From the IMG/VR virus record IMGVR_UViG_3300032053_000352, positions 1 to 30,017 of that record: a stretch of 30,017 nucleotides of DNA; one strand, given 5' to 3'. The translations under genes and the position numbers were made by a program. Positions 3,361-30,017 of this stretch are shown here, piece by piece (positions within the stretch are counted from its first letter, which is position 1; the number at the start of each line of letters is the position of its first letter). A model generated the notes under the pieces. It was not told where the DNA came from. It worked only from the letters and a program-made list of their open reading frames with translations, and ran no database searches. This DNA is from a virus.

Positions 3361-4727
3361 TAAGCTGTTGTTGTTTGTTTTGTTACTAATTTGACAGCAT
3401 TTTCATGTGTAATTTGGAATATAATTTCCAAAGTATTAATTTTTTGATCTTCTGTCAATGTAGTATCAATCAAGATTTCTTTCAATGCTTGCAATCCACC
3501 CACACCAAGTGCTTCATATAGTGGTTTTGTTTCAGCTGCTTTGCTTTCTTCTGGTGGATAACCCAAAGATTCACGCACTTCATTTGCTGTGAAATACTTC
3601 AAGTAATCTGCACCAATTTGTGATTCTGCAACTGGTGCTTTGAATGGAATGATTGAATAGTCACCACTTGGATTGATGTTTTCTGCAAATCCAGTGAAGA
3701 TTTCCTTGAAAATTTCTTCCAGAACAAGTCTGCCATCTGCTGTGTAGCCATTGAATAAAGCAGTTGCTTGTTCAATTTGACTATCACTGAAAGCATTGCC
3801 ACTGTTTCTTAAAATAAGAACTGGTGGAATCAAGAAATTCAATATAATGTTTTCGCGCACAGAAGATTCTGTGAATTCATAAAGCTTTTCAACATCCTGG
3901 ATTTCAATTTTCTTCAGTTCAATGTTGTCATTGTCAGTTTCTTTTTCCAGGTGGAAGAATTTCAGCGCGTCATCTGCACCTTGAAACTGTTGCAAGTTTT
4001 CATGAAACAGTTCAAGGTCTTCATCTTTTTCAAACTTGTTTGTGATGATCAAGTGTGAAGCCATGAAATTAGTTGTGATATTTCTGAACTTGAAAGTCTT
4101 TGCTTTGCTGTCAGTTTGCATGTCTTCCAGAACAGAATCAAATGTTGAAAGTGGATATTCATGACCTTCTGGTGTCCAAAGAAAAACTTGTCCTTTGTAG
4201 TATTCCCAACCACCAGCTTCATCAACTTGTTCTTGAATCACTTCTGGATTTCTGTCATAAAAGTGAAGAAAGTCAATTTTCTTTTTGTCAATCTTTTTGT
4301 TTTCTATTCTTTGCCAATCACGATAAATCGCAATCATATCTGGATGGTCTTTGTCATCCTTAGTTGTTAATCTTGCATATTGAAATGGAACATAATTCAC
4401 TTCAACTGGTTCAAATAAAGCATTGTAATTGACATGAATCACAATGTATGGAAGCAATGACTTGTTCACTGCTAATTTTCTAAGCAGTTGATCAACTGTT
4501 GTTCCAGATTTATTGATCTGTGATTTGTAGAATGTTTTTTCTGTCATTCCACCGCCAATCAAGAAACGCGCTTTCATTCCAACACAAGCAGTTGCAGATC
4601 CACTTGAATTGACAATGTCAATGATTCTTTGTGGATAAGCATTGTCAATGTCATAATTCAGAATTCCATCAGTTCTGTTCAAACTGACTGAAATTCTTTT
4701 TGTGATGTCTGTGACTGTTGCTTTCAA
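3360..4727 (-). CDS. Phage portal protein
   Basis: 455 residues, a normal size for a siphovirus portal. Portals form the dodecameric ring at the capsid vertex through which DNA enters and leaves. Family hallmarks visible are the mid-protein segment SSVRENIILNFLIPPVLI, then LRNSGNAFSDSQIEQATALF at about residues 306-325 (the stem/crown helices of portals usually carry a similar phrase), and a C-terminal YFTANEVRESLGYPPEES near residue 393, the typical portal 'T-x-NEVR-x-x-LG-x-PP' ending. The start overlaps no upstream gene; 21 bases separate it from the upstream stop. It lies downstream of the protease and capsid, whereas portals usually precede them. Recognition is by motif and size. Confidence 0.82.
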   Translation of the reverse strand: MKATVTDITKRISVSLNRTDGILNYDIDNAYPQRIIDIVNSSGSATACVGMKARFLIGGGMTEKTFYKSQINKSGTTVDQLLRKLAVNKSLLPYIVIHVNYNALFEPVEVNYVPFQYARLTTKDDKDHPDMIAIYRDWQRIENKKIDKKKIDFLHFYDRNPEVIQEQVDEAGGWEYYKGQVFLWTPEGHEYPLSTFDSVLEDMQTDSKAKTFKFRNITTNFMASHLIITNKFEKDEDLELFHENLQQFQGADDALKFFHLEKETDNDNIELKKIEIQDVEKLYEFTESSVRENIILNFLIPPVLILRNSGNAFSDSQIEQATALFNGYTADGRLVLEEIFKEIFTGFAENINPSGDYSIIPFKAPVAESQIGADYLKYFTANEVRESLGYPPEESKAAETKPLYEALGVGGLQALKEILIDTTLTEDQKINTLEIIFQITHENAVKLVTKQTTTA

Positions 4728-4748
4728 GCTGGTTGTGTTTGAATTTAA

Positions 4749-5333
4749 TTACTTCTTTTTTGTTTCAGCTGCAATTACTTCTTGAAGTGTTGCATTCTTT
4801 GGAAGTCCAACTGCTTTTGCTCTGTTCTTTATTTCAGTTTTTGAAACAACAACTGGAATTTCTTCTTTCTTCACTTCTTCTTTGTGTTCTTCTTTCTTTG
4901 GTTCTTCTTTTTTGGCTGCTGGTTTTGCAGTTCCAAAGACAATTGACTCCCAATCTTCTGGAAACTTTTCAAAGTTCTTGATGTGTCCTTTGTGTGACTT
5001 CAGCAATTCAATTGCCTTTTCGTCTGTCATGTTCTTTTCAGTCAAGATGGTTGTCATTGCATGAAGCATGATGACTTTTCCTTTTTTTAGGATGAATTTG
5101 TTCATTTTTATTTGGTTAATTAAGTTTAATTTTTCAACATTTAATCTTGACAACATGAAGAACAAGTCTTCAACACATTTGCACTTCTTTGACTTATTCA
5201 AGTGAATCCCAAACAGTTCATTATTTAAGTCACTTGCTGCTTTGAATTCAGCACTTGAATGTTTTTTGCGCCATGTTGATTTTGTCTTTTCCAAAGATAA
5301 AACAAAATTGATTCTTTCAGCTTGTGTGTTCAT
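4749..5333 (-). CDS. Two-part head-region protein with Lys/Glu-rich linker
   Basis: 194 residues, no family recognised. Residues 1-75 contain a KCKCVEDLFFMLSRLN segment. The second part begins MNKFILKKGKVIMLHAM and ends with a Lys/Glu-rich linker (about residues 139-157, KEEPKKEEHKEE and similar) followed by a short basic tail domain (SKTEIKNRAKAVGLPKNATL). The internal ATG at 5105 is preceded by an A/T-rich leader (AACCAAATAAAA) that looks like this phage's other start regions, so translation may also or mainly start there, giving 118 residues (4749-5105). The tail domain resembles small SAP/HeH-type helical modules. It sits between the tube-like protein and the portal. Confidence 0.6.
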   Translation of the reverse strand: MNTQAERINFVLSLEKTKSTWRKKHSSAEFKAASDLNNELFGIHLNKSKKCKCVEDLFFMLSRLNVEKLNLINQIKMNKFILKKGKVIMLHAMTTILTEKNMTDEKAIELLKSHKGHIKNFEKFPEDWESIVFGTAKPAAKKEEPKKEEHKEEVKKEEIPVVVSKTEIKNRAKAVGLPKNATLQEVIAAETKKK

Positions 5334-5407: not shown

Positions 5408-5986
5408 TTAAACCAATGCTTCAACAACAGCAAGTGTTGTTGCATAGTCAGTGATAAACAATGTTTGTGGTTGATATGGTTCAAGACCTCTTTCATTGTC
5501 TGTTTTCAATAAGATGTTGAAAGCACCTTGTGTTTCAGCATTTGTCACATCACGTTCAATTGTTTCTGACTTCAAGCCAGCATACAATCCATAAATTTCA
5601 AAAGCAGAATTTCCAGATGTTCCCTTATATTTATTGTAAACAATGGCTGTTAAGTCACCATCTTTCATGTCTTCAATCACTTGCTTTGCTTCTGGTGAAA
5701 CATCAAATGCAATGAAGTTGATTTCATGTGACCAGTTTCTGAAATATCTTCCTTTCACCATCATTGATTTTGGTGCAATTGAATTGTTCAGTCCTTGAAA
5801 AACATATCCAAGTGCAGCAGATTCAAGAACTATGTCTTCAATTACTTGTGGATTTGAAATGTTTTTTGTCAATGTTGCAATCTGTGTTCTGTTAAGAAGC
5901 ACAAGTGTGTCTTCAGTTCCAGCTTGAAGTGGATTTGTGCAATCTGCACCAATTCCGCTTGCTAATAAACCACATATTTGTGTCAT
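5408..5986 (-). CDS. Tail-tube-like virion protein downstream of capsid
   Basis: 192 residues from the ATG at 5986 (MTQICGLLASGIG). A GTG at 6019 in the same frame was rejected because it lies inside the hairpin following the capsid gene. The upstream context ATTCAAAACAA-ATG has no Shine-Dalgarno, as usual here. The sequence is beta-rich and carries phrases I associate with abundant structural proteins of Bacteroidetes phages (GTEDTLVLLNRTQI near the start; TLFITDYATT at the end). Its own hairpin boundaries on both sides suggest a separately measured, highly expressed product, as expected for a major tail or decoration protein. A tail-tube assignment is tentative. Confidence 0.55.
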   Translation of the reverse strand: MTQICGLLASGIGADCTNPLQAGTEDTLVLLNRTQIATLTKNISNPQVIEDIVLESAALGYVFQGLNNSIAPKSMMVKGRYFRNWSHEINFIAFDVSPEAKQVIEDMKDGDLTAIVYNKYKGTSGNSAFEIYGLYAGLKSETIERDVTNAETQGAFNILLKTDNERGLEPYQPQTLFITDYATTLAVVEALV

Positions 5987-6014
5987 TTGTTTTGAATTAG
6001 AATGTTTATGAAAT

Positions 6015-20875: not shown

Positions 20876-21597
20876 TGGTTCTTTGCTCTTATTATCTTTT
20901 CATAATTGCGTTTGAACTTTGCTTCAAGCAAAGTTCTTTTGAGTTTCAAAAATACTAAATTATAGTTCAACTTCACAATTTGTTCATATTTTAATATGTC
21001 ACCATGTGCCAATGAATCAATGATGTTCTGTGAACCAAACTGACTGAACATATCAATTCCAGCGCGCCTTTGTTCATCTGTTGTGGGGTTTGACAATTCT
21101 GCTTGTTCCAATTTAATAAGTTTTTTCAGCTGTGAAAAGAAGAAATTTGCAACTGGATAAATTTCACACAGCTTCAATTTGTTAATAAGTGGAATCTTTG
21201 CAAGTGCTTTTGAATAATCAAATTCTTCACCAGTTAATGCTGGTTGAAGATATATTGCAATAGCCTTTTCAACTTCATTTGGTTTGACTTGTTCTTGCAG
21301 CAACAACTTTTGTCCAAAGGTTTCATTCTTGATGTCAATGTTGATTCTTATTTCAACACCTTCAATTGTGATTGTTCCTGGAAGCTTCCAGTCTTCTGGT
21401 TCAAATGGTGTTTGCATGAAGAACATGAATGGAAGCAACTGATTCAACAGTGCTTCATTCACATTCATCCCAGAAAGAACAGAAGCAATGTGCTTCAAGT
21501 CTGTGGAATTTTCAATCTGTTTCCATTGTTCCATTGTAAGTTCACCCCACATTTGCGGAAAAGAAAACTTGACTTTATTTGCTTTAAGATGAATCAA
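20872..21597 (-). CDS. Uncharacterised protein after the large terminase, 241 aa
   Basis: No family recognised with confidence. It begins with a beta-strand and a conserved-looking phrase FSFPQMWGELTMEQWKQIEN, then helices with leucine-rich segments (ALLNQLLPFMFFMQTPFEPE). The end is strongly basic (KLKRTLLEAKFKRNYEKIIR). ATGA overlap couples it to the large terminase. Proteins starting 'W-x-E-L-T-x-x-Q...' in Bacteroidetes phages are sometimes tail-assembly chaperones, which would fit the neighbouring tail-completion genes, but this is only recall and low confidence. Confidence 0.55.
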   Translation of the reverse strand: MIHLKANKVKFSFPQMWGELTMEQWKQIENSTDLKHIASVLSGMNVNEALLNQLLPFMFFMQTPFEPEDWKLPGTITIEGVEIRINIDIKNETFGQKLLLQEQVKPNEVEKAIAIYLQPALTGEEFDYSKALAKIPLINKLKLCEIYPVANFFFSQLKKLIKLEQAELSNPTTDEQRRAGIDMFSQFGSQNIIDSLAHGDILKYEQIVKLNYNLVFLKLKRTLLEAKFKRNYEKIIRAKNQ

Positions 21598-22952
21598 TTT
21601 CTTCTAGTCACATGTGATCTGACACCACTTCCAAATGGTTTCAGTTCAAAATATTCGCGCATCATTAAAACGTCACGCCAATCTGGTGAACGTCCAATCA
21701 ATTCTTTGACTTTTTCTTTTGGAATTATCTTCACTTTTCCATCCAAGTCTGTTTTGTATGACTGAATACTTTCAATTTCTTCAATGATTTCTTCTTTGTG
21801 TTTGTCAGACAGTTCTGCTGCAAAATGAATTCCATTTGCATTCACGCGGTTTGCGAAGTACACCACACACTGTGCTTGAAGGTTCTGAAAGTTTGGTTTG
21901 TCCTTCAGTCCTTCATCAATTGGTGAAGAATTATTCACAAAGCCTTTGATTCCACAATTATCAACTACACCACCACCAACACCATCTTCATCTGCAATCA
22001 CTTGAAACTTTGGTATTACATGCTTTATTCGTAGTGCATTGATGCAATCTTGAATCTGTGTTGTTCTTGACTTGTCAAACACATGATATTCAATCACAGT
22101 CCAGTCATTCCAAACAACAATGATTGCTTTGTCACTTCCAAATCTGGCAACATCTGCTGTGATGAATTTTTTTCCAGATGGTTTGACCTGGTCATTGGTG
22201 AAGATAGCAAGAATGGAATCATATTCACACAGTGCATTTGGATTGTCATCATATTCCCAATTCCCAAGCAACAGACGCTGTTTTTCATTCCTTGACAAGA
22301 TTCTTTCTAGGTTCAACAAGTATTCCTTTGACAGCATCTTGTTGTCTGTTGGTAGTGCTTGAATGAATCTTTTCCAGTGTTCAAGTGTTCCTTCTTTGTA
22401 TGGTTTATAAACGTCACGATATAAATAGTTTTTTGAAGGATTGCAAGTCTGAAGAAGTTTTCCATTGATTCCATAAAGGTCATTTTTCCAGCGTCCAATG
22501 GAAGCTTGAAGATTGTTCTTTGCTTCCAGTGTAAATTCACCAGCTTCTTCAATCCATCCTCTTGTCATTTGCATAGAACCAAATCTGTAAAAATGTGGAT
22601 CACTTGGAAGATATTTGGCATCCAGAAGAAACACCTTTGATTTGTTGTATAGTTCAAAGAAGTTGTCTTGTCCATTGTATTTGAAGTATTCTTGTCCTAC
22701 CTTCCAAAGCTGCAAGACTTCATGAATGGATGGAATGGTGAACTTCCTTATGTCATTCAGATTCTTTCTTGCAATGAAGTAGTGTGTTTCGGGATAAATG
22801 AAAGCATCGCCAAATATTAATGAACAACCAGTGAATGACTTTGCAGAACCTTTTGAACCACCATAAGTGATTTCAGTCACTGTGTTGTCAATCCATGCTT
22901 GAACACATTCTTTTTGTTTCAGATTGTCTTTGGTGTCAAAAAGTAATTCCAT
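21594..22952 (-). CDS. terL: Terminase large subunit (packaging ATPase-nuclease)
   Basis: Drives genome packaging through the portal and cuts concatemers. Motifs seen: Walker A GGSKGSAKS at residues 31-39; Walker B-type acid pair in RGWIEEAGEF (E135/E136); coupling motif TCNPSK at 169-174; and the RNase H-like nuclease triad with D267 in FITADVARFGSD, D321 in VIADEDGVGGG and D424 in GRSPDWRD. Length of 452 is normal for this family. The start ATG at 22952 leaves a 69-base gap to the small subunit, which includes a weak hairpin. ATGA overlap with the next gene. Packaging type (cos or headful) cannot be told from this sequence. Confidence 0.93.
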   Translation of the reverse strand: MELLFDTKDNLKQKECVQAWIDNTVTEITYGGSKGSAKSFTGCSLIFGDAFIYPETHYFIARKNLNDIRKFTIPSIHEVLQLWKVGQEYFKYNGQDNFFELYNKSKVFLLDAKYLPSDPHFYRFGSMQMTRGWIEEAGEFTLEAKNNLQASIGRWKNDLYGINGKLLQTCNPSKNYLYRDVYKPYKEGTLEHWKRFIQALPTDNKMLSKEYLLNLERILSRNEKQRLLLGNWEYDDNPNALCEYDSILAIFTNDQVKPSGKKFITADVARFGSDKAIIVVWNDWTVIEYHVFDKSRTTQIQDCINALRIKHVIPKFQVIADEDGVGGGVVDNCGIKGFVNNSSPIDEGLKDKPNFQNLQAQCVVYFANRVNANGIHFAAELSDKHKEEIIEEIESIQSYKTDLDGKVKIIPKEKVKELIGRSPDWRDVLMMREYFELKPFGSGVRSHVTRRN

Positions 22953-23021: not shown

Positions 23022-23507
23022 TTACTTGACTTGCATTCCAGTGATTTGCTGAAGTCCAAGTGTTCCAGAAACTTCTGTTTGAACCTTGTCACCATAAGAT
23101 TTTGGTCTTCGTTTGGAAGCCATCCATCTGTAATGCTGTGCTAATTCACGCGCTTTGACCAATGACCATTGATTCATTCTAGCTTTGATCATGATGTCTT
23201 CAGCCATTTCAGCAAAGGTGTCAGCAGATGTGTTCATTGCTTCGCGCACACGCGCGGAATGTATGTCACTAGATGCGAAGTTATGAAGCACCATCAAGTC
23301 AACCTTCAGCTTCTTTGCCATTGCACGATAAGACAAACCATCAATGATCATTCTTAGAATCACATCAATGTCCAGGTCTTTCTTCTTTGTCTTGGTGTTT
23401 GGTTGGGCTGCAAGGAACTTCTTCACTGTTGGGTGAAGAACTAGCTTCTTTGTTCCTTTTGGCTTTTGTGAAACATTTGGCTTTGACTTCTTTGGTTGTT
23501 TTGACAT
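23022..23507 (-). CDS. terS: Terminase small subunit
   Basis: 161 residues directly upstream of the large terminase, as usual. A basic N-terminal tail (KQPKKSKPNVSQKPKGTKK) precedes a helix-turn-helix-like DNA-binding segment (LSYRAMAKKLKVDLMVLHNF, about residues 58-77). The middle is an oligomerisation-type helix, and the C-terminus holds WMASKRRPKSYGDKVQTEVS, the 'P-x-x-Y-G-D-K' ending that marks many small terminases and contacts the large subunit. It recognises the packaging site and stimulates the large subunit. Confidence 0.85.
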   Translation of the reverse strand: MSKQPKKSKPNVSQKPKGTKKLVLHPTVKKFLAAQPNTKTKKKDLDIDVILRMIIDGLSYRAMAKKLKVDLMVLHNFASSDIHSARVREAMNTSADTFAEMAEDIMIKARMNQWSLVKARELAQHYRWMASKRRPKSYGDKVQTEVSGTLGLQQITGMQVK

Positions 23508-25408: not shown

Positions 25409-26119
25409 ATGAAAAACATGAAAACAACAACAGAAATCACCAAAGAAATTGACAGCAAGGTTCTGTCAGTTATTGGAAGCAAAAAAATTGCTGGATTTGA
25501 AAAAGCACACCTGGTTGCAAGCGCAATTGAACATTTGAAAACAATGTTGACACCAGAATACATGAAACCTATTATGGCGCTGCAAGGAAACAAACTAGGT
25601 TTCAGAACAGACAAAGACAAAGTTGGTGGATATGACATGACTGTTGTTAAGAACTGTTTGATTGAAGCTGTTCTTGTTGGACTTCAACCAACTGGAAACC
25701 AGTTCAACATCATTGCTGGCAACATGTACCCAACAAAAGAAGGATGTGGATATTTGCTAAACAATTTTAATGGACTGAAGTTTGAAATCATTTGTGGACT
25801 TCCAAAAGTAAATTCAGATAAAACTGGTGCAGCTGTTGATGTGAACATTAAATGGACACTGAATAATGAATCAAATGAAAAAGTGATTCCAATTCCAATC
25901 AAGATTGATTCCTATGCTTCAGTTGATTCCATCATTGGCAAAGCAACAAGAAAAGGACGGGCATGGCTTTTGTCAACAATCACTGGTGTTGAAATTACAG
26001 ATGGTGAAATTGAAGATGCAACACACACAGTTGTTTCTTCTGAAACACCAGAACAAAAGATCAAGAAATTAAAAGACTTGAAAGCTGAAGGAAACCAAAT
26101 AAATGCTGAATTATTATGA
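25409..26119 (+). CDS. recT: RecT-family single-strand annealing protein
   Basis: 236 residues. The diagnostic region is MALQGNKLGFRTDK near residues 57-70, then NCLIEAVLVGLQPTGNQFNI (75-105) and AGNMYPTKEGCGYLL, the RecT/Red-beta 'GLxPxGNxFxIIAGxMYxTKEGxGYLL' signature of Bacteroidetes phages. RecT anneals single strands and promotes strand exchange, working with an exonuclease partner (RecE or a similar nuclease) during phage replication. Its last codon overlaps the next ATG as ATGA (26116-26119), implying coupled translation with the nuclease-motor fusion. A second ATG (MKTTTE) three codons in could be the true start. Confidence 0.9.
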   Translation: MKNMKTTTEITKEIDSKVLSVIGSKKIAGFEKAHLVASAIEHLKTMLTPEYMKPIMALQGNKLGFRTDKDKVGGYDMTVVKNCLIEAVLVGLQPTGNQFNIIAGNMYPTKEGCGYLLNNFNGLKFEIICGLPKVNSDKTGAAVDVNIKWTLNNESNEKVIPIPIKIDSYASVDSIIGKATRKGRAWLLSTITGVEITDGEIEDATHTVVSSETPEQKIKKLKDLKAEGNQINAELL

Positions 26120-28200
26120 TGGAAGCGCACAAGTATAGAAATCTAAGCAATGAAGAAAAGGAAGAATTATTTTCCAATTATCTTCTTGATAGCTGGTCTT
26201 TTTCAAAAGTAGATTCATTTGCAAGAAATGAAAAAGCATTTGAAATGAATTATGTGTATCGTGAACCAAGCAAATTTTCTGCTTCTTCTGTTGCTGGAAC
26301 AGCATATCATTCAGCCTTGAAGCTTTATTTTTCTGAATTGAAAGATGGTGTCAAGATTGATGTTGCTGACATGCAAATTGTAGCAATTGAAGAAATTGAA
26401 AAGGTGAAGCCAAACAAATGGAAGACACAGAAAACAACACCAACAATTGAAGAATGCAGAAAGAAAGCAACAGAAGTTGCAATTGCATTGATCAACAACT
26501 TCCTTTCAGATGTGTCTGTCTATGAAGGTGATATGAAGGAAATCATTTCTGTTGAAGTTTATTGTGACCAGTTCTTGACAATCAATGGTGTTGACATTCC
26601 GCTTCCTTGTCATTCAATTATTGACTTGGTCATCAAAACAAATGAAGATAAAATTGTTGTCATTGACCACAAATCAAAGTCAAGCTTTTCAGATGAAAAG
26701 GAATTGAAGTTTTCAATTGGCAAACAAGCAATCACCTATGTCAAGATGTTGGAAACACAAAATGACATCCATGTTGATGAAGTTTGGTTTGTTGAAAACA
26801 AGTATTCACAGAACCGCGACAAGTCACCACAGTTGAATTGTTTCAAAATGATTCTTGACAAAGACACTAGAAGGTTGTATGAAGCACTTTTGTATGAACC
26901 ACTAAAAAGAATGCTTGAAGCCATTTCAAATCCAGATTATGTGTATCTAATAAATGAAGCAGACAACTTTGTTGACAAGGCTGAATTGTATGAATTCTGG
27001 ACCAAGACAATGATTTCTGAAGTTGAAGATTATCAGATACCAGAAAACAAAAAGGAACTAATTTCAAAAAGGCTTCGCAAAATTCGGGATGCTTCAATTG
27101 GAACAATCAATCCAAAAACAATAAAAGAGTTCAGAAGAAACGCTGCTGCATTCATTCAATACGATCTAACAAATAAAGACATGACCAAAGAAGAAAAAAT
27201 TGAACACACACTGAACACACTTGGAATCAAAGTAAACATTGCACACACATTCAAAGGATATTCTTCAGACACATTCTTGATCAATGTTTCATCTGGAACA
27301 AACCTTTCAAGTGTTCAGAAATACAAACTTGACATTGCAAGCGCATTGAATGTGTCTTCAATTAGAATGATGAAAGATTTGTTTGTGTATGAAGGGAAAT
27401 CATATCTTGCAATTGAATCTGGAAAACAAAGGGAACAAGATTTGCTTTTTGATGCAACACTTGTTGATGGTCAAAAGATTCCAATTGGTGTTGACAACTT
27501 CAACAAAGTAATTTATTGGGACACAGACAATGCTTCAACACCACACATGTTGATTTGTGGTTCAACTGGTTCTGGAAAATCTGTCTGCATCATTTCAATA
27601 TTTGAGTACGCAAAACTAATTGGATTCACTGACATTGTTTTGTTTGATCCAAAGTTTGAATTCACAAGGTATGCTGGCAAAGGAATAAAAGTTTACAATG
27701 ACATTGATGACATTGAAAAAGCAATGGAAGAACTTGTTGTGACAATGAATGAACTTGTGAAGACAAGTGGGAAAAGAAAAACACTTGTTGTGTTTGATGA
27801 ATTTGCAGATGCTGTTGCTTCTTCTAAAAGTGGAAATGCTTTGAAAATTTATAAAGAAGTTCCAGAAGGAACATTTGCAAATGGAAATATAAAGTACAAA
27901 AGAGTGCTTGCAGAAACAAAGAAGTCTTTGGAAGAAAACTTGAAGATTCTTCTTCAAAAAGGAAGATCAAGTGGTTTCAGAATCATTGCAGCAACACAGC
28001 GCGCTTCTGTCAAAGTCATCACTGGTGATGCTAAAGTGAATTTTCCAGTTCAGATTTGTTTCAAAGTTCCAAAAGAAACAGATTCAAAAGTTGTCCTTGA
28101 TGAAGCTGGTGCAGAAAGTTTGTCTGGAAAAGGTGATGGACTTATGAAGTCACCAGATTATTCTGGTGCAGTTAGATTTCAAGCATTTTACAAATCATAG
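26116..28200 (+). CDS. RecB/Cas4-type nuclease fused to FtsK/SpoIIIE-type motor
   Basis: 694 residues in two parts. Residues about 25-350 are a PD-(D/E)XK nuclease with the full RecB-family set: G61-x3-H65 in GTAYHSAL, D170 in CHSIIDLVI, D184-x-K186 in VVIDHKSKSS, and Q204-x3-Y208 in KQAITYVK. Residues about 365-694 are an FtsK/SpoIIIE-type motor: the alpha-like 'IKVNIAHTFKGY' and 'DIASALNVSSIRMM' region, Walker A GSTGSGKS at 482-489, DPKFEFTRY at 511-519, Walker B LVVFDEFAD at 557-565, and GRSSGFRIIAATQRASVKVI at 616-635 with the DSKVVLDEAGAESLSGKGDG end. It has no membrane segments and no C-terminal gamma domain. Probably resects or moves along DNA, feeding RecT. Coupled by ATGA to recT. 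Confidence 0.85.
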   Translation: MMEAHKYRNLSNEEKEELFSNYLLDSWSFSKVDSFARNEKAFEMNYVYREPSKFSASSVAGTAYHSALKLYFSELKDGVKIDVADMQIVAIEEIEKVKPNKWKTQKTTPTIEECRKKATEVAIALINNFLSDVSVYEGDMKEIISVEVYCDQFLTINGVDIPLPCHSIIDLVIKTNEDKIVVIDHKSKSSFSDEKELKFSIGKQAITYVKMLETQNDIHVDEVWFVENKYSQNRDKSPQLNCFKMILDKDTRRLYEALLYEPLKRMLEAISNPDYVYLINEADNFVDKAELYEFWTKTMISEVEDYQIPENKKELISKRLRKIRDASIGTINPKTIKEFRRNAAAFIQYDLTNKDMTKEEKIEHTLNTLGIKVNIAHTFKGYSSDTFLINVSSGTNLSSVQKYKLDIASALNVSSIRMMKDLFVYEGKSYLAIESGKQREQDLLFDATLVDGQKIPIGVDNFNKVIYWDTDNASTPHMLICGSTGSGKSVCIISIFEYAKLIGFTDIVLFDPKFEFTRYAGKGIKVYNDIDDIEKAMEELVVTMNELVKTSGKRKTLVVFDEFADAVASSKSGNALKIYKEVPEGTFANGNIKYKRVLAETKKSLEENLKILLQKGRSSGFRIIAATQRASVKVITGDAKVNFPVQICFKVPKETDSKVVLDEAGAESLSGKGDGLMKSPDYSGAVRFQAFYKS

Positions 28201-28865: not shown

Positions 28866-29564
28866 ATGCCAAAACAATTTTCATATCTTCCATATTTTCA
28901 ATTTAAACCTTCAGACTGGTTGACTGGTGACATTCAATATTGTTCACTTGAAGCAAAAGGTCTTTTTTCTGACATCTGTGCTTTCTATTGGCAAAGGAAA
29001 TGCACAATGACACAAGTTGAATTGTATAAAAAATTTAAACATGAAAAACTTCTTGAAGAATTGATTCATCAAGAAGTCATCAAGATTGAAGATGGTGATG
29101 TTGTGATTGAATTCCTTCTTGACCAGTTTGAACTTCTGCACAAAGAACACAAAAGAAATGTCACCAATGGAAGAAAAGGTGCTGAAGTTAGAAAGCAGAA
29201 TCAAGAACGGAAGCAAGTTACACATGATCCACTTCCTGGATTCCATCTTTCAAGTATAGAAAAACAACCAGAAGGTGTCTTTTTCAGAATAGGAATGACA
29301 CTTCACAGAACAAATGTTTCTGAATATGTCAAGAATGAAATGTCAATTCACACAGAACAATTCATGATGACAATGAAACCAATCACCATTGATCAAGTTC
29401 TGAAACAAATGGACACTGATTATCTTGGTTATTCATTTAACAATCACAACCATGTCATCAAGGCTTTTGATAAGATTGCAAAGGATATGAAGAACGGAAA
29501 ACAAAACAACTTCAAGAATAATGAAACACCAACAAAATTGTCTTATTCAATTAACCAAAAATAA
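28866..29564 (+). CDS. Phage replication-initiation-like protein (DnaD/DUF1376-type)
   Basis: 232 residues. The opening YLPYFQFKPSDWLTGDIQYC and continuing SLEAKGLFSDICAFYWQRK is the winged-helix pattern of replisome-organiser/DUF1376-type proteins ('F-x-x-x-x-W-x-x-G-x-I-x-x-x-S-x-x-x-x-G-x-F-x-x-I/L-x-x-Y-W'). The middle has a helical linker (NVTNGRKGAEVRKQNQERKQ). The C-terminal part is a variable protein-interaction domain. It would open or mark the phage origin and load the helicase. It is the last gene of the early block before the composition changes at 29,565. Confidence is moderate because the match is by recall. Confidence 0.7.
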   Translation: MPKQFSYLPYFQFKPSDWLTGDIQYCSLEAKGLFSDICAFYWQRKCTMTQVELYKKFKHEKLLEELIHQEVIKIEDGDVVIEFLLDQFELLHKEHKRNVTNGRKGAEVRKQNQERKQVTHDPLPGFHLSSIEKQPEGVFFRIGMTLHRTNVSEYVKNEMSIHTEQFMMTMKPITIDQVLKQMDTDYLGYSFNNHNHVIKAFDKIAKDMKNGKQNNFKNNETPTKLSYSINQK

Positions 29565-29687
29565 CGTTTTGCAGATTACAGCAGGTGGGGCTTTACACCA
29601 CAAAATATGAACTGAAAAACTAAATTTGATATGAATACAAATGTTGATACAAAAACGGAAACCCCCACTTGCTGTAATGTGCTGTTA
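29562..29687. repeat. Long palindromic element at a composition boundary
   Basis: Arms ATTACAGCAGGTGGGG (29575-29590) and CCCCACTTGCTGTAAT (29663-29678) pair over 16 bp with one G-T wobble, separated by 72 bases. Beyond the inner arms TAAC (29562-29565) and GTTA (29684-29687) can also pair. The element straddles the methyltransferase start (29631). It resembles mobile palindromic intergenic units I associate with Flavobacteria genomes, which often end TGTGCTGTTAGC; the same phrase is here at 29678-29689. That link is memory-based. Confidence 0.5.
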
Positions 29688-30017
29688 GCACCAGTACGGG
29701 TTTTAAACCTTTATGCTTGTCTTGGCGGTAATCGTTACAAGTGGGATGAAGTGGCAAATATTGAAGTAACTGCGGTTGAATATGATGCTGAAATTGCAAA
29801 AGCATATCAAGAGCGTTTTCCAAATGATAAAGTGATACTTGCAGATGCACACCAATATTTACTTGACCATTACAAAGAATTTGATTTTATATGGAGTTCG
29901 CCACCTTGTCCAAGCCATAGCAAAATTAGAATTACTCAAAAAAGTAGAGAAACATTTACGCCTTTATATCCTGATATGAAATTGTATGAAGAAATTATTT
30001 TTTTAGATAATCATTTT
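29631..30017 (+). CDS. C5-cytosine DNA methyltransferase (partial, runs off right end)
   Basis: 129 residues to the window edge. Motif I is VLNLYACLGGNRYKWDE at 24-40 (the SAM-binding F/Y-x-G-x-G-G region), then VTAVEYDAEIAKAYQERFPN, an acidic turn typical of motif II-III. The catalytic motif IV is FIWSSPPCPSHSK at 86-98 with Cys93 as the nucleophile that attacks cytosine C6. The MN...-type start is within the palindromic element, and the first 21 residues before the core are not conserved-looking, so a later start (such as GTG at 29679) is possible. CpG content is far higher than in upstream phage genes, pointing to recent acquisition. A matching restriction gene, if any, lies outside. Confidence 0.85.
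   Translation, partial: MNTNVDTKTETPTCCNVLLAPVRVLNLYACLGGNRYKWDEVANIEVTAVEYDAEIAKAYQERFPNDKVILADAHQYLLDHYKEFDFIWSSPPCPSHSKIRITQKSRETFTPLYPDMKLYEEIIFLDNHF

Follow-up and report, generated by a model that had tools for sequence, protein, structure and literature searches.

The window analysed here is the whole of a virus record of 30,017 bases. Its plus strand carries a putative annealase gene followed by an ORF coding for a PD-(D/E)XK nuclease fused to an FtsK-type DNA motor (Table 1). The original prediction had described a single protein of 694 residues uniting a RecB-family nuclease with an FtsK ATPase core, whose start overlaps the upstream gene as ATGA. The overlap is exact and the architecture is confirmed by family models, invariant residues and fold matches. 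Pfam models match the protein at residues 26-217 (PDDEXK_1, 4e-11), 356-434 (FtsK_alpha, 3e-7) and 454-548 (FtsK_SpoIIIE, 2e-7), and the PHROG matches are 1358 (FtsK-like, 2e-44) and 1218 (exonuclease, 4e-11). Downstream of the fusion, positions 28866-29564 code for a replication-type protein (phrog_29280, 4e-25; primosomal-like phrog_9327, 1e-4). The record closes with the beginning of a C5-cytosine DNA methyltransferase gene (29631-30017), which lies downstream of the genes for recombination.

Table 1. Coordinates of the annealase and nuclease-motor genes and of their features in the window.
Feature	Position	Strand	Details
Annealase (Redbeta/Rad52-type predicted fold), fusion partner	25409..26119	+	AlphaFold2 pLDDT 85; 7ujl, Z 8.3
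Annealase C-terminal tail codons (NAELL-COOH), proposed docking peptide	26102..26116	+	Tail class [LM][PLMA]-COOH
Overlap of annealase stop and fusion start (ATGA)	26116..26119	+	Exact
PD-(D/E)XK nuclease - FtsK alpha-beta motor fusion	26116..28200	+	694 aa, ATG start; Pfam, PHROG, alignment, fold
RecB-type PD-(D/E)XK nuclease region	26116..26850	+	Residues ~1-245 (up to ~250); Pfam PDDEXK_1, invariant residues, fold matches
Nuclease residue codon H65	26308-26310	+	
Nuclease residue codon D170	26623-26625	+	
Nuclease residue codon D184	26665-26667	+	
Nuclease residue codon K186	26671-26673	+	
Nuclease residue codon Q204	26725-26727	+	
Nuclease residue codon Y208	26737-26739	+	
Low-confidence hinge from nuclease/helical region to motor	27142..27174	+	Residues 343-353, pLDDT <50
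FtsK alpha-beta DNA motor	27172..28197	+	Residues 353-694; 2ius, Z 33.7
Walker A	27559-27582	+	
Walker B	27793-27810	+	
Arginine finger R617	27964-27966	+	
ATQR	27991-28002	+	

The nuclease half presents both the GxxxH, D, DxK, QxxxY residue set and the fold of the RecB family. In an alignment of 50 homologues, G61, H65, D170, D184, K186 and Q204 are invariant and Y208 is nearly so. Residues 15-298 of the model match the nuclease domain of AdnA (9np6, Z 16.6), and the nuclease half also matches the putative exonuclease 3l0a (Z 16.3). Foldseek additionally returned the Cas4-family protein ACE1 (9iac, E 6e-8); NurA was not among the matches listed for this half in the fold searches. The nuclease had been labelled as Cas4-type, a label that finds no support: the Fe-S nucleases of the Cas4/AddB type need four conserved cysteines, and across the 50 homologues no cysteine of the nuclease half reaches 90% conservation.

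The motor half is of the FtsK type. It superimposes on the Escherichia coli FtsK motor over 306 residues at 2.5 A (Z 33.7), whereas HerA-type motors score lower, at about Z 17-20; the E-value of the FtsK profile match is 1.8e-44. In the same 50-homologue alignment, the Walker A residues G482, G485, G487 and K488 do not vary, and S489 and D561 are almost invariant. In the Pseudomonas aeruginosa FtsK motor, the arginine finger is R620 and the DNA loops involve R632, K643, K657 and R661 (PMC7321959). By profile alignment, R620, R632 and K643 correspond to R617, R629 and K640 of the fusion, R661 to K658, and K657 to E654, beside which stands K653; the arginine finger and most DNA-loop residues are thus matched. 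All the elements of an FtsK alpha-beta motor are present, i.e. the alpha domain, the RecA-fold beta domain, the Walker A and B motifs, the arginine finger and the DNA loops. The predicted absence of a gamma domain is borne out, the C-terminus of the protein being the end of the beta domain.

Folding of the fusion with AlphaFold2 and the 50 homologues gave a mean pLDDT of 87 and a pTM of 0.49, with a flexible hinge at residues 343-353. In this model the N-terminal part takes the fold of a soluble nuclease, and no membrane segment was noticed in the protein. As for the fold check that had been proposed, the nuclease half has a predicted PD-(D/E)XK fold and the motor half an FtsK fold. The low pTM means that the model does not fix the relative placement of the nuclease and motor halves. 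Given the invariant catalytic residues and the motor residues mapped above, both nuclease and motor look active from their sequences.

The gene upstream of the fusion had been called recT. Coupling of an annealase to the fusion stands, but the RecT family label is weak: the protein matches no Pfam, PHROG or NCBIfam model, and its hhalign comparison to a RecT alignment is not significant. The best PDB match of its AlphaFold2 model is the lambda Redbeta protein (7ujl), over 139 residues; the next unrelated entry reaches Z 5.9, the Rad52, Mgm101 and Sak entries Z 4.7-5.7, and the Foldseek E-values are weak. Its putative identity as an annealase is drawn from the predicted fold.

Viral contigs and bacterial genomes were searched with motif patterns located in the nuclease half. 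The scan returned 73 viral loci and 19 bacterial-genome loci, 18 of the latter being the fusion. Once duplicates and one non-fusion locus (L100) were removed, 82 distinct fusions remained including that of the window, the 81 others lying in viral contigs and Bacteroidota genomes, among them prophages of named isolates. The hosts are Bacteroidota such as Tenacibaculum, Chitinophaga, Flavobacterium, Chryseobacterium, Wenyingzhuangia and Pedobacter; two short fusion contigs in metagenome-assembled genomes of other groups may be misbinned. In all the loci fetched, 139 ORFs hold the nuclease, the middle region and the motor together, only two ORFs are limited to the nuclease, each running into a contig end, and no separate-gene version of the two halves was found. 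The possibility that an assembly error had joined two normally separate genes is refuted by these 81 further distinct copies and by halves that are never separate in the loci fetched.

A survey of 395 Bacteroidota genomes, scoring two candidates per genome, found the full-length fusion in at least one, the genome at the centre of the draw, and FtsK-type matches only in the others; this count is a lower bound. Three loci (L071, L073 and L074) form a remote clade of the fusion, at about 36% identity, and a wider scan with this clade recovered only the same three loci. No INPHARED entry reaches 80% coverage of the fusion protein. Three FtsK records from this database (L461, L462 and L464; MT836718, MT835572 and MT837656) were rejected as relatives since they do not match the nuclease profile. 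They are fecal 'Bacteriophage sp.' entries with an FtsK-type protein beside an apparent undecaprenyl-diphosphatase and, judging from their neighbours, are probably bacterial chromosome deposited as phage. Mycobacterium phage WXIN (L463) was also rejected: its 433-aa protein, encoded at 106457-107758 near the gene of a Ku-domain protein, is a bare FtsK motor without a nuclease.

A survey for the same fusion next to recT had been suggested with the original prediction. In nearly all 82 loci, the gene upstream of the fusion codes for an annealase, either of a known family or a likely one; in L042 none is visible. Single-linkage clustering and family searches divide these partners into RecT (PF03837), ERF (PF04404), Rad52_Rad22 (PF04098), Sak4-like AAA_24 (PF13479), phrog_561 RecT-like, Bet/RecT-like, phrog_3657, phrog_15333, the window type and one unassigned group. 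Phrog_3657 and phrog_15333 are annotated as of unknown function. Some of the groups may be distantly related through the Rad52 fold, and RecT, Erf and Sak/Rad52 annealases may have a remote fold in common. The ATGA overlap with the upstream gene occurs in 45 of the 78 loci whose adjacent ORF is 150 aa or longer. In locus L025, an HNH homing endonuclease-like gene (5471-5998, from reading of its sequence) lies between the annealase and the fusion genes and overlaps both. In locus L056, a DnaQ/RNase T-type exonuclease gene (4408-4962) overlaps the annealase stop, the fusion lying further downstream.

Phage single-strand-annealing (SynExo) modules pair an exonuclease gene with an annealase gene, and the same pairing is found at the fusion loci. 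Four annealase families were large enough for a comparison of gene content (RecT, Sak4-like, ERF and phrog_3657). A YqaJ/lambda-exo-like nuclease was found in none of the 63 loci where the fusion stands beside the annealase and in 170 of the 221 loci devoid of the fusion; among the seed nucleases of this comparison, YqaJ identity was established for two and the others have no Pfam match. The fusion therefore occupies the slot of the SynExo exonuclease. Judged by gene content, it replaces the YqaJ/lambda-exo-like enzyme and the two are mutually exclusive. For phrog_3657 (L061:4132-4944 and relatives), the fusion is present in 26 loci, and 42 of the 46 others encode a YqaJ-like nuclease in the neighbourhood; from this context, phrog_3657 is a probable annealase family.

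The partners of the fusion, whatever their group, share a C-terminal tail with the consensus K-[VPIL]-[DEN]-[LM]-P-COOH. The motif was first spotted in the fusion partners, and controls were gathered later from the four families named above. Written as [LM][PLMA]-COOH, the tail terminates 60 of the 63 annealases paired with the fusion, against 2 of the 221 relatives that lack the fusion (Fisher p 3e-55, ignoring relatedness); in the strict form [LM]P-COOH, the counts are 48 of 63 and 0 of 221. The window annealase ends in NAELL, and none of the 17 window-type relatives without fusion among those listed has a tail ending. On quick trees of the four families, built without a mixture model, fusion status switches about 14, 10, 4 and 1 times (about 29 in total). 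These trees provide 16 independent contrasts with support; tail and fusion change together in about 14.5 of them and in opposite directions in none. Relatedness does not explain the tail, since it tracks the fusion across these switches. The three partners lacking the ending are those of L010, L073 and L074. In L010, MP-stop is found in another frame just ahead of the fusion start, which suggests a frameshift. The annealases of the remote clade (L071, L073 and L074) have no [LM]P ending and keep a KK-rich C-terminus. A KKxxLK stretch upstream of the tail was rejected as part of the motif, being enriched only in RecT and phrog_3657 partners and not in Sak4-like or Erf partners.

These observations make it likely that the fusion is the exonuclease of a SynExo module, endowed with its own double-stranded DNA pump and with interchangeable annealases recruited through their tails. 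Sequence and statistics show the fused architecture, the intact catalytic residues, the replacement of YqaJ/lambda-exo-like nucleases, the variety of partners and the restriction of the tail to these partners. We infer a hexamer, entry at a DNA end, the direction of pumping, the strand polarity and the docking of the tail on the fusion as follows. The FtsK ring would assemble on a DNA end and move inward, with the beta ring leading. DNA would meet the beta ring first and the alpha ring second and exit on the alpha side; there the nuclease, attached N-terminally, would digest at least one of the emerging strands. Held beside the exit by its conserved tail, the annealase would at once coat the exposed strand and anneal it to homologous DNA. 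Only the tail would have to fit, so that distinguishable annealase groups could be exchanged. The movement of DNA by FtsK runs in the beta-to-alpha direction (PMC7321959), and NurA meets the DNA pushed by HerA at its exit (PMC12977600); with the nuclease joined to alpha, it is expected at the DNA exit, as NurA on HerA. For the docking of the tail there is a precedent in the C-terminal domain of Redbeta, which binds lambda exonuclease (PMC8303780). The wider proposal has a somewhat better than even chance of being right: a single-chain nuclease pumping double-stranded DNA would offer one universal docking site, for which at least seven annealase groups (RecT, ERF, Rad52, Sak4-like, phrog_3657 and others) would each have acquired the same plug, K-[VPIL]-[DEN]-[LM]-P-COOH, so that resection, pumping and loading are coupled while the annealase stays exchangeable.

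An end-resection and loading machine, one of the two mechanisms offered in the original prediction, is thus the best-supported reading, as the fusion replaces the SynExo exonuclease and its partners carry a fusion-specific tail; its mechanism would still be that of the model above. FtsK is a translocase and not a helicase, which counts against this reading. So does the Thermococcus kodakarensis HerA-NurA pair, which cuts both strands and whose authors doubt a role in end resection (PMC12977600): a pump-nuclease need not leave an overhang. The remote clade, whose partners lack the [LM]P ending, and L042 likewise count against it. The original prediction named an SF1 helicase as the normal companion of RecB-like nucleases. 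This leaves out the phage exonucleases, lambda exo among them, that function with no helicase. It also leaves out HerA-NurA, in which an FtsK/HerA-type pump is already paired with a nuclease (PMC12977600).

Other explanations concern either the tail or the fusion as a whole. An origin of the tail as a by-product of overlapping stop and start codons, or of signals for translation initiation, is suggested by the ATGA or TAATG overlap of most loci, but is contradicted by the counts. The tail is kept in 18 of 20 non-overlapping loci, so that gene overlap does not explain it. It persists as KMEMP in L025, about 0.5 kb before the fusion start and ahead of the HNH-like gene, and as PPQMP in L056, where three ORFs and about 1.6 kb separate it from the fusion. 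Conversely, L108 and L109 have another nuclease gene with a 4-base overlap and annealases without the tail. The codon of the tail proline varies (CCA, CCG, CCC), and this synonymous variation means that the constraint acts on the peptide. A by-product is thus scarcely credible. A more serious alternative, albeit an unlikely one, is that the tail binds a third partner needed only with the fusion, such as a host or phage SSB or the replisome, the fusion then resecting DNA without holding the annealase. The tail resembles the C-terminal tip of SSB (D-D-L-P-F) minus its final Phe, SSB-like proteins ending in DLPF or DIPF are encoded in several loci, and the C-terminal domain of Redbeta binds lambda exo and SSB alike (PMC8303780). 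However, a general SSB partner would not explain a tail that changes together with the fusion gene on the trees of four families, and in L078, L084 and L088, which carry the fusion, the SSB-like proteins still end in a DLPF tip of their own.

The fusion could also be a HerA-NurA-like weapon destroying host or competitor DNA, the annealase repairing phage DNA separately. Defence systems that combine an FtsK/HerA-type pump with a nuclease are known, the PADLOC models HerA, mad8 and SspH match the motor half, and HerA-NurA cuts both strands (PMC12977600). Yet no PADLOC model matches the nuclease half, the fusion is paired with an annealase gene almost everywhere, in most cases through a start/stop overlap, and the exchange with SynExo exonucleases is clean; this possibility is judged improbable, more so than a third partner. 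A role in genome packaging or concatemer processing instead of recombination is less probable still. It is favored by a match of the PHROG terminase model 2666 to the motor (5e-10), but the window has its own large (21594-22952) and small (23022-23507) terminase genes on the opposite strand, which speaks against the fusion being the terminase large subunit of this phage.

The reading of the fusion as a SynExo exonuclease invites comparison with several known systems. As in lambda Red (lambda exo and Redbeta) and in YqaJ/RecE with RecT, the exonuclease gene adjoins an annealase gene in phages; these systems differ from the fusion, whose nuclease is RecB-like and carries a covalent FtsK pump. 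Redbeta couples to its exonuclease through the annealase C-terminus, which is comparable to the proposed tail docking, although in Redbeta this is a folded domain of one family and in the fusion partners a tail of a few residues common to distinct groups. HerA-NurA shares a ring pump of the FtsK/HerA superfamily feeding double-stranded DNA to a nuclease. It consists of two separate proteins, whereas the fusion is a single ORF with an FtsK-type motor, a PDDEXK/AdnA-like nuclease and an annealase as partner. Compared with FtsK/SpoIIIE translocases, whose alpha and beta domains, arginine finger and DNA loops are all conserved, the fusion is devoid of the KOPS-reading gamma domain, and the nuclease replaces the membrane anchor and linker before alpha. 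The nuclease domains of RecBCD, AddAB and AdnAB have the same PD-(D/E)XK active site of the RecB family; in contrast to these, the fusion has neither an SF1 helicase nor conserved Fe-S cysteines. The motor is also homologous to stand-alone FtsK-like proteins of phages (PHROG 1358, mycobacteriophage translocases), which in the one isolate case of WXIN have no nuclease.

The fusion module is classed here as a SynExo variant that resembles HerA-NurA in its pump-to-nuclease layout. Its parts are known. In the open-licence literature, for the most part its titles and abstracts, no report was found of a covalent PD-(D/E)XK-FtsK fusion within a recombination operon, of its clean exchange with SynExo exonucleases or of the shared tail. 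The finding supports phrog_3657, currently without a function, as a probable annealase family. If the proposed working is true, the fusion is a recombination exonuclease with an FtsK-class pump of its own, and distinct annealase groups are made interchangeable by a short, portable tail. This would bear on the hand-over of single-stranded DNA from exonuclease to annealase, which matters for recombineering beyond a few hosts.
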